Part shown: positions 55,262 through 60,512 of the stretch, piece after piece
Numbering within the stretch: the stretch's first letter is position 1
How the letters are laid out: every line of letters begins with the position of its first letter
NCBI RefSeq assembly: GCF_000376265.1
Contig: NZ_AQWU01000065.1
Span: 180-64,179, forward strand
Reading direction: 5' to 3'
Source: Thermus igniterrae ATCC 700962
GTDB taxonomy: Bacteria; Deinococcota; Deinococci; Deinococcales; Thermaceae
DNA length: 64,000 nt
Translations under genes and position numbers: made by a program
Notes under the pieces: model-generated
Told to the model about the DNA's origin: nothing
What the model saw: the letters and a program-made list of their open reading frames with translations, nothing else
Databases searched by the model: none

Positions 55262-56704
<1,443 letters not shown>

Positions 56705-56778
56705 GCTTCTCGGCGCCTTCTCCCCTCTCGCCAGTCCCGGACGGGCGGGGTGGGGGATTGCGCCTTCTTGAAAGCTTC

Positions 56779-56812
56779 TTGACAGGAAGGGGGGGGGGGG
56801 GCGTGGTAACCT
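56779..56812 (+). promoter_or_regulatory. Promoter with a 13-G homopolymer in the spacer; candidate phase-variable switch
   Basis: TTGACA (56779-56784) is followed after GGAA by thirteen consecutive G (56789-56801) and then the extended -10 TGGTAACCT (56804-56812). The spacer to TAACCT is 22 bases, about five too many for normal promoter activity. Slippage in the G tract would change the spacing. It lies 22 bases before the small exported peptide gene (SD AGGGGG, ATG 56834). Confidence 0.6.
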
Positions 56813-56833
56813 CACCCTTGAGGGGGTTGAGCC

Positions 56834-57208
56834 ATGCGCAAATTCCTCTTGGTGCTGATGGCCTTTGGGCTTTTGGCCTATGCCCCGGTGGGTGCTGTCG
56901 CGCAGGGGTATGCTCTAGCTCTTGGAGTTCAGGGAAAGATCCAGGGCGCTGTTAACTTTTCCTTGCTCCAGAACCTTTCTGATGAGGAACTCTTGGATAT
57001 TGCCGGAGTTGGTGGACAACTTTTTGCTGACGCAGAGAGCTACATTTTCGGTGGCCTCTGGAGCGCAATAGGAGGTTGTTTGTGTTATGCTGCGAGCCAG
57101 GCCCTGGGTTTGAGTGGAGTAGGAGATTTTGCCTTTCAGCTTGCTGGGAATGTAGCTTGGAGTTCGCTTGGGACATGGCTTTGGAAGCAGGGGGAGATCA
57201 GTCCCTAG
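56834..57208 (+). CDS. Small exported peptide precursor with double-glycine-type leader (bacteriocin-like)
   Basis: A 124-residue protein of visibly lower GC than its neighbours. Residues 1-24 are a Sec signal peptide (MRKFLLVLMAFGLLAY, cleavage near AVAQ). Residues 48-61 read LSDEELLDIAGVGG, matching the LSxxELxxIxGG leader consensus recognised by C39 peptidases except for Val in the last position, with GG two residues later. The remaining ~63 residues are Gly/Ala-rich and hydrophobic with Cys82 and Cys84 before the... in fact inside the core (GGCLCYAAS). I know of no named family. The next genes encode a small membrane protein and a C39 peptidase, so a secreted antimicrobial or signal peptide is the best guess. 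Confidence 0.65.
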   Translation: MRKFLLVLMAFGLLAYAPVGAVAQGYALALGVQGKIQGAVNFSLLQNLSDEELLDIAGVGGQLFADAESYIFGGLWSAIGGCLCYAASQALGLSGVGDFAFQLAGNVAWSSLGTWLWKQGEISP

Positions 57209-57220
57209 GGGTGTTATGTA

Positions 57221-57412
57221 ATGCGTGTCCTAGATGGGTATACGAAGGGGGTGATTGTAGGTAGCCTGTTAGCTTCGGTTCTGATCTTTATTTACAACAA
57301 TCTGTTTTTGGGACGTGACATTAGCTACGCTTCCTGGGAAGCCTTAAAAGTTGCCATAGCTACTTTTGGAGGAGGTTTGTTGGGTAAACTAATTTTTTCT
57401 AGGAAATTTTAG
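57221..57412 (+). CDS. Small two-helix membrane protein, possible immunity protein
   Basis: A 63-residue low-GC gene 12 bases after the peptide gene. Two hydrophobic segments (about 9-29 and 43-60) flank a short polar loop (LGRDISYASWEA), and the C terminus is basic (KLIFSRKF). The size and position are those of immunity proteins in class II bacteriocin operons, but no family match is claimed. SD-like TAGGGGTG lies eight bases before ATG 57221. Confidence 0.6.
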   Translation: MRVLDGYTKGVIVGSLLASVLIFIYNNLFLGRDISYASWEALKVAIATFGGGLLGKLIFSRKF

Positions 57413-57543: not shown

Positions 57544-58194
57544 ATGGTCCCCACATTGAAACTCGTACTTCTCTTCTGGGCGTTTTTTGGCCAAGTGGAA
57601 GCCCTATCTTCATCTTCCTACCGTACCCTCCGCTACACCCACGTCGTCGGCCAGACGGACTGGTACACCTGCGGCGCGGCGGCGGTGGCCACACTGCTCA
57701 CCTACTACTATGACGACCCGGCCACGGAAGGCGAGGTCCTAAAGGTGGCCGTGCGTGAGACGGAGGCCTCGGGGAAGGACCCGCGGGAGGGGCTTACCGC
57801 CCTTTCCCTGAAGCGGTACCTGGAGGGGCGGGGGTACGAGGTGAGGGCCTACAGGGTGAACCTGGAGCAGCTCGCTGACTACTTCCGCTGGGGCGGGCTT
57901 CCGGTCATCGGTCACGTCACCAAGCCCCAGCTCCACTTCCTGGTGATCGCGGGTCTCGTGGACCCGCCCGGGGGCGGCCCTGCCCAGGTGCTCCTCGCCG
58001 ACTCCTCGTGGGGCCGGCGCATCGTACCCATAGAGGCCCTAGTGACGGAGAAGGGCTTCTCCGGGGTCATCCTGCTGGCCCTTCCCCGGTCGGCGGCCCA
58101 GATGGGGCGGGTAAGGGCCAACCAGGAGGCGGAGCTCTCCTGGGCGCTTTCCCGGCTTCGCCGGCTGGAGGCCCTCGGGGGGAGGTGGCCTTGA
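57544..58194 (+). CDS. Exported stand-alone C39-family peptidase
   Basis: A 216-residue protein. A signal peptide (about 1-20) precedes a papain-like C39 domain with Gln37 (oxyanion) and Cys43 in GQTDWYTCGAAAV, His131 in KPQLHFLVIAGL and Asp153 in LADSSWG. No ABC transporter or nucleotide-binding domain is attached, so it acts outside the cytoplasm. C39 enzymes cut after double-glycine leaders, and a candidate substrate lies 340 bases upstream. ATG 57544 is chosen; an in-frame TTG at 57481 lies inside the IS relic. GC is host-like. It overlaps the next gene start (TTGA). Confidence 0.82.
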   Translation: MVPTLKLVLLFWAFFGQVEALSSSSYRTLRYTHVVGQTDWYTCGAAAVATLLTYYYDDPATEGEVLKVAVRETEASGKDPREGLTALSLKRYLEGRGYEVRAYRVNLEQLADYFRWGGLPVIGHVTKPQLHFLVIAGLVDPPGGGPAQVLLADSSWGRRIVPIEALVTEKGFSGVILLALPRSAAQMGRVRANQEAELSWALSRLRRLEALGGRWP

Positions 58195-58916
58195 GGCTTC
58201 TGCCCCTCTTCCTGGCCTTCGCCGCCTGGGCCCTGGCCCAGGTGGACCCCTTGCGCCCGGCGGAGGAGCCCCCCCTGGGCTACCGCCTCACCCTCTCCTA
58301 CGCCCCCTCTGCCCTCCAAGGGGTGGGGGCGGACGAACGGGGTCCCTACGCTTTCCTGCGGGTGGGGCACGGATTGAGCCTGTCCTTGGGTCTCAGCTAC
58401 CGGGTGGCTCCAGACCTCTTCCTGGAGGGCAGGCTGGGGGGCGGCTACACCCTCTTTGGGGAGAGGCGGGACTACGGGGAGGCAGGGGAAGTCCTCTGGC
58501 GAGGGGAGGGCAGGCCTTCCCTTGGGGTGGGGCTGGCCTACCGGTTTCCCGACCTCTGGGGCCGCCCCCGGGTGCGCCTGGGGCTGGGGTACCCCTGGGC
58601 CCTGGAAGGGGAGGCCAGTGGGAGCCTCCTCAGGGATCCGGTGGTGGCCACCTGGGCCCTGGGGGTCTCCTACCCCCGGGGCGGTGTGCCTCTCCTGGGG
58701 CTGGGCTTGGGCTTATCCCTGGTGGCCAACGAGGTGTGGAGCCTAGGGCTTGGGACCTCCCTCTCCCTGCCTCTGGGGCTGGAGCCCCCCGGGGGAGCCC
58801 TCCTCCTGCGGGCGGGGTACGCCCTGGACCCCGAAGGGAAGGGAGAGGTGGGGGTGCGGGTAAGGTACGGCGACGGGGGCTTTGCCCTAGGCCTGGAACT
58901 CACGGGCCCCCTCTAG
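58191..58916 (+). CDS. Outer-membrane beta-barrel-like protein
   Basis: A 241-residue protein with a signal peptide (LLPLFLAFAAWALAQ) followed by many alternating hydrophobic/polar strands (YRLTLSYAP, LSLSLGLSYRV, LFLEGRLGGGYTLF, PSLGVGLAYRF, VRLGLGY, GGALLLRAGYAL), which predicts a small barrel in the outer membrane. Start TTG 58191 overlaps the C39 stop and has GGAGG at good spacing; GTG 58185 is an alternative. It could be a release pore or receptor for the processed peptide, or an unrelated porin-like protein. Confidence 0.68.
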   Translation: MRLLPLFLAFAAWALAQVDPLRPAEEPPLGYRLTLSYAPSALQGVGADERGPYAFLRVGHGLSLSLGLSYRVAPDLFLEGRLGGGYTLFGERRDYGEAGEVLWRGEGRPSLGVGLAYRFPDLWGRPRVRLGLGYPWALEGEASGSLLRDPVVATWALGVSYPRGGVPLLGLGLGLSLVANEVWSLGLGTSLSLPLGLEPPGGALLLRAGYALDPEGKGEVGVRVRYGDGGFALGLELTGPL

Positions 58917-58918
58917 CC

Positions 58919-59662
58919 TCAGCGGAATAGGGCTTCCTCCAGGGGGAGGCTCACCTGGGCTTCCAGGGTTTCTCCCCGGGAGAAGAGGACCCACCGGTCC
59001 CCCGTCCGGAGGTAGCCCTCCGACCTCACGGGATAGCCCGCGCTCCCCTCCTTCCGAAGGTCCCGGTAGAGGGTCAGGGTCTCCATCCCGAGCACGGGGG
59101 AGAAGTGCCCCTCCCCCACCACCTTCCCTTCCTGTACGTAGACCTCTCCCTCGTAGGGTTTAGCCTCCAGCACTCCCTTGGGGAGACAGGCGTGGGACCG
59201 GCGCGCCACCCGGTAGGCCTCCGCCTCGCTGCCATCGGGGAGGGTCACTTTCCCCAGGGAAGCCACCTCGTCATAACCGAAGGCGGCCCCGGTGAAGCCT
59301 GTCTGCCAGGCGAAGATGAGCTCCAGGAAGAGGCGGTCGTCCAGGGGGGTTTCCCTGCCGTCCGGGAGGCGGAGGAACTGGCGCTCCCGGGTGTAGACCA
59401 GGGTGGCGGGCGCCTTCTCGCCCTCGGGGGCGATCTCCAGGCGAAGGCGGCAACCGCCGAGGTCAAGGTAGGTCCGGATCCGCAAGACCTGCGTTTCCTG
59501 GCCCTCGGGGGTGAAGTAGACTACCCGGTCCAGGCCCTGGTAGGTCTTGCCCCTCCAGTCGCCGAAGGCGGCCTTGAGGGCGGATTCCACCGCTTCCTTG
59601 GGGGACTGGGTGAGGGCCAACGGGCTGAACAAGGCCAGAATCAGGGCAAGGGATCGTTTCAT
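58919..59662 (-). CDS. Exported protein of unknown function (LolA-like fold possible)
   Basis: A 247-residue protein with a clean signal peptide (MKRSLALILALFSPLALTQ). The mature part is beta-rich with repeated strands (YQGLDRVVYFTPEGQETQVLRIRTYL, LRLEIAPEGEKAPATLVYTRERQFLRLPDG). Its pattern recalls LolA/RseB-type half-barrels, but I cannot assign a family with confidence. The IS lies 17 bases upstream of the ATG, so its original promoter may have been displaced. No clear SD is seen. Confidence 0.6.
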   Translation of the reverse strand: MKRSLALILALFSPLALTQSPKEAVESALKAAFGDWRGKTYQGLDRVVYFTPEGQETQVLRIRTYLDLGGCRLRLEIAPEGEKAPATLVYTRERQFLRLPDGRETPLDDRLFLELIFAWQTGFTGAAFGYDEVASLGKVTLPDGSEAEAYRVARRSHACLPKGVLEAKPYEGEVYVQEGKVVGEGHFSPVLGMETLTLYRDLRKEGSAGYPVRSEGYLRTGDRWVLFSRGETLEAQVSLPLEEALFR

Positions 59663-59679
59663 GGTATGAGCTTAACATT

Positions 59680-59693
59680 CCTTCGTGTGCTAC
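59680..59693 (+). repeat. IS terminal inverted repeat, left
   Basis: CCTTCGTGTGCTAC; it matches the complement of 60627-60640 at all 14 positions. Confidence 0.92.
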
Positions 59694-59694
59694 C

Positions 59695-60512
59695 TCATAG
59701 CTCCACCCCGGCCATCCTGAGAAGCACCCGGCTACGTATGAGGTTGTGAACAAGCAGGATGAGGTTCACACGGGCCACCAGCCCCCAGTAGGACCGGGCC
59801 TCTATCCGATGAAGCCCCAAAGACCGGACCATCACGCTGAAGCGGGTCTCTATCCAGTTCCTGACCCTCCCCATCCACTCTCTCCACCCCGTCTCCACCA
59901 CCTTCCCTCCCCTGACCCGATAGGGCGGGGTCTTGACCCCCTGGACCCAGCGGAAGCCCCGGTCCCCCAAGACCGCGGGCAGACCGTCCAGCAGGTCCCT
60001 CCCCCAGGTCTCCCGGGCGTTGCCGGGGAGAATGGCCCAACGAAAAAAGAGGCCCCGCTCGTTCATCACCGGCATGAGAACGTAGCCCGCGAAAGCCCCC
60101 AGGGGTCCCACCCCCACGGCGGCCTCAGGAAGAGAGAGGCCGTGAATCCGGTGGCCGTGAGCCAGGGGGATGGGTTTAAGGTCCACCACCTGCAGGAGGC
60201 CTTTTCCCCCGGAGAGCCTCATGGCCAGGTGAGCCAACAGCCCCTGGGCCTTCTGAAGGACCCGGTAGAAGCGAGAGCTGCTTCCCCGAAGGGGAACATC
60301 TTGGGGTGGGGGAGGGAGGGGAAGTAGGCCTTGAGGGTGGTCTTGGCGGCCAGGTAGCCTTTGGCGAGGTCCTGGCCCTGGAGGAGCAAAAAGATGGCGA
60401 GGGTCAGGAGCTCGGCCAGGGTGGCTTTCTGGTGCTTTTGCTTTGGGGGGAGCTTGAAGCCTTGGGCCTGCAGGGCCTTCAGTTCGTCATCTACCCAGAT
60501 GTAGGTAGCCAC
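59695..60512 (-). pseudogene. IS transposase, split by a frameshift
   Basis: The N-terminal part (60512 down to about 60285) encodes VDDELKALQAQGF and the helical region up to PKMFPFGE. The catalytic part is in another frame, from about SSSRFYRVLQKAQGLLAHL to the end MAGVEL. The DDE residues are plausible at VVDLKPIPLAHG, LGDRGFRWV and WIETRFSVM. The frames change near TTCCCCTTCGGGG. This may be a disabling mutation or a programmed frameshift, which some IS families use. The stop lies next to the left terminal repeat. Confidence 0.85.

Follow-up and report, generated by a model that had tools for sequence, protein, structure and literature searches.

A run of 13 G residues lies between the -35 and -10 boxes of a predicted promoter in Thermus igniterrae ATCC 700962, upstream of a small operon for a secreted peptide. 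Comparison with orthologous promoters suggests that this tract is a slipped-strand contingency element, making the promoter phase variable in the manner of porA, opc, and fetA; we put the probability of this reading at about 0.68.

An uninterrupted G tract separates two promoter boxes

The window (the whole stretch of 64,000 nucleotides that was analyzed) comes from a 2.2-Mb draft genome in 74 contigs, designated G000 here. On its plus strand, the -35 box TTGACA (positions 56779 to 56784) is followed by GGAA, the G13 tract (56789 to 56801), CG, and the extended -10 element TGG-TAACCT (56804 to 56812), giving a spacer of 22 bp between TTGACA and TAACCT. The promoter is a predicted one; its boxes are conserved across six genomes, and a ribosome-binding site and an open reading frame (ORF) come next. 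A Shine-Dalgarno-like GAGGGGG (56820 to 56826) is located 7 nt 5' of the ATG, and an in-frame TGA (56828 to 56830) interrupts the interval between tract and ATG. The tract is therefore not part of the gene's reading frame, and translational frame switching is excluded. With 13 G, the bases 17 to 18 bp 5' of the -10 box are all G, so that no alternative -35 box is available there. The original prediction, which had placed TTGACA and an extended -10 element on either side of 13 G at a 22-base spacing, was correct in coordinates and length, and its arithmetic holds, since loss of five G leaves 8 G and a 17-bp spacer. What it had treated as one unit downstream (56834 to 57412), however, consists of two ORFs of 124 and 63 amino acids.

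Such a run is exceptional in this genome. G/C runs in the window number 126 of 6 bases, 34 of 7, and 6 of 8, followed by the single run of 13; the tract is the longest homopolymer of the window, as had been claimed, and the next longest has 8 bases. Genome-wide pattern searches identified it as the sole G/C run of at least 11 (the 11-G pattern matched at three overlapping positions, all within G13), and a run of 14 G was not found anywhere in the genome. We judged rarity from the genome's own run-length tail because a first-order Markov model yields more long G runs than T. igniterrae DNA contains; the chance estimate derived from that model was dropped. A G/C run of 11 is absent from 15 of 27 Thermus genomes. 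Several long G/C runs in other Thermus drafts adjoin N gaps and look artefactual; the drafts G009, G011, G022, and G023 (L009, L010, L021, and L026) contain many poly-C runs beside such gaps that are likely assembly artefacts. Poly-G/C runs of 7 to 8 bases have been reported to be in excess in the coding genes of Thermus thermophilus (PMC2831843). The other runs of 7 to 8 in the window, which are shorter than G13 and mostly coding, rarely show length indels between orthologues.

Tract length differs among near-identical Thermus promoters

When tract length was left free, the promoter pattern matched in 6 of 50 Thermaceae genomes, which all belong to Thermus. The tract comprises 13 G in T. igniterrae (G000), 12 in Thermus parvatiensis RL (G016), 11 in both G026 and Thermus sp. 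JCM 17653 (G020), 10 in G004, and 8 in G003. The six carriers are six species with one genome each, and the variation is thus between lineages. The promoter precedes the same gene in all six, the extended -10 element is invariant, and the -35 box is TTGACA in five and CTGACA in G003. That the tract would vary in length had been predicted and is borne out between genomes, with 8 to 13 G inside conserved flanks. G016 and G003 differ at 0 of 372 nt of the peptide gene and at 2 of 123 positions of the promoter flanks, yet they carry 12 and 8 G, respectively. The four islands with the B allele of the peptide gene (see below) are at most 6 nt apart over that gene and have four different tract lengths. 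As judged from these alignments, the tract is changing far faster than the sequence around it. Runs above about 10 G are expected to be unstable, however, so variability by itself is no proof of function.

The operon forms an island that starts directly 3' of the stop codon of proS (prolyl-tRNA synthetase; 55271 to 56704, plus strand; Pfam tRNA-synt_2b, HGTP_anticodon, and ProRS-C_1), a gene shared by all 27 Thermus genomes, the majority of them without the island. G004 is the only carrier in which the promoter does not come right after proS; an insertion sequence (IS) of ∼1.2 kb sits just upstream of its -35 box (L068) and leaves the promoter intact. Among the carriers, proS has diverged by 5 to 14%, whereas identity over the 88 bp preceding the tract is 98 to 100% in four genomes, which argues that the island moved between species recently. 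On this comparison, the tract has been altered repeatedly since that movement. Searches of plasmid and viral collections returned weak matches to Deinococcus C39 peptidases only, and the promoter was not matched.

Some further rearrangements were seen around the island. G004 and G017 share an IS insertion site 5' of the island promoter (L068; L070 and L088), and in G017 the peptide and membrane protein genes have apparently been lost beside an IS256-like transposase. In T. igniterrae, a region containing a minus-strand gene for a secreted 247-amino-acid protein and a broken IS transposase (58919 to 60512) separates the island from the gene that is next after proS in most Thermus.

Thermus promoters cluster at spacers of 17 to 18 bp

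Among 100 TTGACA-TATNNT pairs from five Thermus genomes, the spacer was 17 bp in 44 and 18 bp in 32, and spacers of 19, 20, 21, and 22 bp occurred 2, 3, 1, and 3 times, respectively; these counts are not independent, as orthologous promoters recur among the five genomes. TTGACA-TAACCT pairs outside the island in Thermus behave similarly (17 bp in 10 of 24 and 18 bp in 6 of 24), and the other four TTGACA-TANNNT pairs of the window have spacers of 17 or 18 bp. This clustering supports the earlier proposal of 17 bp as the favorable spacing. The island promoter reaches 17 to 18 bp only with 8 or 9 G. Five of the six carriers fall outside this range, and the observed lengths extend to it, 8 G corresponding to 17 bp. 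G003, the sole carrier with the ideal 17-bp spacer, is the one with the weakened -35 box CTGACA.

Several Thermus tRNA promoters have G8 to G9 within a spacer of 17 to 18 bp (L096, L097, L104, L105, and L108), indicating that a good, normal promoter can have an 8-G spacer; G-rich spacers are not in themselves peculiar to the island promoter. Other Thermus promoters with G8 in the spacer were considered as candidate switches and rejected; several of them are these tRNA promoters, whose spacing is fixed and which can serve as controls.

The promoter precedes genes for a secreted peptide, a membrane protein, a C39 peptidase, and a barrel

The first gene (56834 to 57208, plus strand) is predicted to encode a Sec-exported precursor peptide of 124 amino acids with a signal peptide, for which there are two alleles in Thermus and a third in another family. 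The precursor contains the motif (L/F)(S/G)DEELxx(I/Y)xGxG at residues 48 to 60 and, after it, a small hydrophobic core rich in Gly. DEEL and one GxG are invariant over the three otherwise diverged alleles, and the -1 residue at the canonical double-glycine register is V or E. No above-threshold match to the precursor was found in Pfam, NCBIfam (amyloid families included), or PHROGs; a match in Ruminococcus albus was rejected because it sits inside an unrelated protein. The second gene (57221 to 57412, plus strand) encodes a small membrane protein of 63 amino acids, a candidate immunity protein and the allele-specific partner of the peptide. Allele A is found in G000 and G020, and allele B in G003, G004, G016, and G026. 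Promoter and signal peptide are common to both, whereas the cores differ, and the membrane proteins (60 to 63 amino acids in allele A and 95 in allele B) are unrelated in sequence. Near-identical C39 genes lie downstream of both alleles, with a loss in G026. The pattern is, on this evidence, that of swapped effector-partner cassettes.

The third gene (57544 to 58194, plus strand) encodes a secreted, FapD-like C39 (double-glycine) peptidase (Pfam PF03412, 4e-12). Alignments to 6mpz and to a 50%-identical homologue indicated that Q37, C43, H131, and D153 are conserved, and the best NCBIfam score was to FapD (39.5 bits, far below the family cutoff). None of the island ORFs encodes a peptidase-containing ABC exporter, the hallmark sought for class II bacteriocins and microcins; a C39 peptidase with intact catalytic residues and no ABC transporter is the Nap/Fap-like arrangement. 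The fourth gene (58191 to 58916, plus strand, with an inferred start codon) is predicted to encode an outer membrane beta-barrel of 12 strands with a FapF-like fold. Its AlphaFold2 (AF2) model was built from two sequences (pLDDT 79), and the best 12 Foldseek matches in the PDB were all FapF, a likeness at the level of the fold only (TM 0.6 to 0.7, with 11 to 13% identity over aligned columns). Other Fap genes were not recognized in the island.

All six carriers retain intact peptide and membrane protein genes. When the two allele-A genomes, G000 (13 G) and G020 (11 G), were compared, dN was 0.10 and dS 0.33 for the peptide gene, and dN 0.05 and dS 0.18 for the membrane protein gene (dN/dS near 0.3). 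The low dN relative to dS implies that both genes are under constraint despite the unfavorable spacer. Such constraint would fit if tracts shorten again from time to time or if the extended -10 element sustains low expression; it is at odds with permanent silence. As for the role of the peptide, it may be killing, lysis of the cell that makes it, or fiber formation.

A T tract occupies the promoter spacer of a homologous operon from another family

A profile search with the peptide identified a homologous operon in G070, a genome from another family of the same order. Its products are a Sec-type peptide, a small membrane protein, and a C39 peptidase that closely resembles the Thermus enzyme. 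Its promoter reads TTGACA, AACTCGAC, T8, GC, and TACGCT, with an 18-bp spacer, and the T8 in this spacer is one of only six T8/A8 runs in the 1.9-Mb genome. Homopolymers of different bases in the spacers of homologous operons are hard to call an accident, and it is chiefly on this ground that we favor function over neutral slippage.

G026 contains a second, diverged copy of the promoter (TTGACA, GCAA, G10, CATGG, and TACCCC; 19-bp spacer) near position 1,321,200 of its contig C1 (L129 and L130), 5' of a peptide gene truncated by an IS. This copy lies near a gene for a CPBP-type (EExxxR) membrane protease; in G006, that CPBP gene is found next to diverged C39 and barrel genes. The G006 locus was rejected: it has no poly-G, the peptide gene is absent, and the CPBP protease gene lies upstream.

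Proposed mechanism and alternative explanations

In the mechanism that we propose, slipped-strand mispairing would add or remove G residues between the two boxes. With 8 to 9 G (spacer of 17 to 18 bp), sigma-A could use both boxes and transcription would be strong, whereas with 10 to 13 G (19 to 22 bp) the -35 box would be out of register, only the extended -10 element would be left, and expression would be low; T. igniterrae, carrying 13 G, would be in the low state. In the periplasm, the C39 peptidase would probably cleave the exported precursor at a degenerate site of the double-glycine type, and the FapF-like barrel would probably serve as its exit; protection of the producing cell may fall to the small membrane protein. 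We infer from sequence the slippage within clones, the change in expression, and the processing and function of the peptide. Transcription from a -10 element alone occurs in Deinococcus-Thermus, where a -35 element enhances such promoters (PMC12340547). Given this and the extended -10 element, graded modulation is likelier than a strict on/off switch, and we regard the modulation as probably graded rather than all-or-none; the extended -10 element could function without a -35 box at any tract length.

The same observation lends itself to neutral slippage, in which the extended -10 element alone drives the promoter, the -35 box adds little, and tract length drifts without regulatory effect. The invariance of TGG in the carriers, the documented -10-only transcription (PMC12340547), the natural tendency of long G runs to slip, and the G richness of some Thermus spacers all agree with it. 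A dispensable -35 box would hardly explain why TTGACA is retained in five of the six carriers, in the diverged copy of G026, and in the G070 operon, nor does drift account for the unrelated T8 in the latter's spacer or for the near absence of long G/C runs elsewhere in the genome. We consider neutral slippage unlikely, though the most probable of the alternatives. Far less probable is a single true tract length obscured by homopolymer miscalls. The sequencing technologies behind the assemblies are not given and the poly-C artefacts of some drafts urge caution, but the spread from 8 to 13 extends over six assemblies, no tract adjoins a gap, and other G/C runs of 7 to 8 are almost without length indels between the same assemblies.

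A decayed promoter, in which accidental expansion of the spacer silenced the operon for good, would suit the five carriers outside 17 to 18 bp and the islands damaged by IS elements; it sits badly with the intact, constrained peptide and membrane protein genes and with islands that appear recently exchanged between species, and we give it even less credence than miscalling. There is also a near-palindrome, CTTCTTGACAGGAAG (56775 to 56789, plus strand), which overlaps the -35 box and is a possible operator, so that a repressor could control the promoter and the G run be a mere spacer. It pairs at 6 of 7 positions and is perfect in G003, the genome with the CTGACA box; the motif occurs only sporadically elsewhere in the genus, however, with no regulon pattern, and a repressor leaves both the G run and the T8 spacer unexplained. 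Of these alternatives we rate it the least probable. The contingency promoter is the reading that we retain. A broader version of it, which we advance tentatively and at somewhat under even odds, is that a Fap/Nap-like export operon of the Deinococcota has recurrently acquired a homopolymer switch in its promoter spacer, built independently with G in Thermus and with T in a second family. Only a minority of the population would then produce the secreted, allele-specific peptide, which would serve kin discrimination, autolysis, or a surface fiber.

Comparison with known systems

Promoter switching by simple repeats has been studied mostly in host-adapted pathogens, and phase variation in Thermus was not reported in the open-licence papers searched. 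If the contingency reading is true, such loci also serve free-living thermophiles such as hot-spring Thermus, phase variation extends to a thermophile phylum, and a tractable, nonpathogenic model becomes available for the stochastic control of peptides directed at self or competitors.

In Neisseria, the porA, opc, and fetA promoters are phase variable through a homopolymer between the -10 and -35 elements (PMC2791445). The Thermus promoter resembles them in its uninterrupted spacer homopolymer, in lengths that differ between isolates and in part come near the sigma optimum, and in a surface or secreted product. It differs in that Thermus is thermophilic, the promoter sequence is unrelated, the variation seen is between species, and the genes under its control would serve peptide export instead of encoding a porin or adhesin. 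The comparison with Neisseria made in the original prediction thus holds for promoter architecture, and it can be extended to the regulated genes, which resemble a Neisseria peptide island. The Pseudomonas Fap system is a further relative: the Thermus C39 peptidase scores best against FapD and the barrel fold matches FapF best, but the peptidase score is far under the FapD cutoff, the barrel is only 11 to 13% identical to FapF, and the peptide has no amyloid-family match.

The nap island of Neisseria gonorrhoeae encodes bacteriocin-like peptides, the C39 peptidase NapP, the FapF-related NapF, and a candidate immunity gene, and it undergoes homopolymer phase variation (PMC11798529). Its tracts lie inside ORFs (poly-G in napR and poly-T in napC), whereas the Thermus tract is located in a promoter; GG leaders and a cationic character distinguish Nap peptides from the Thermus precursor, in which a Sec signal and a GxG-type motif accompany a noncationic core. 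Both are small, horizontally acquired islands flanked by an aminoacyl-tRNA synthetase gene, and both combine a C39 peptidase, a FapF-like channel, a candidate immunity gene, and a length-variable homopolymer, on the Thermus side as predicted from genes and models. If our interpretation is correct, the Thermus island is a parallel to nap, and the concept of the nap island can be put to the test in another, unrelated phylum.
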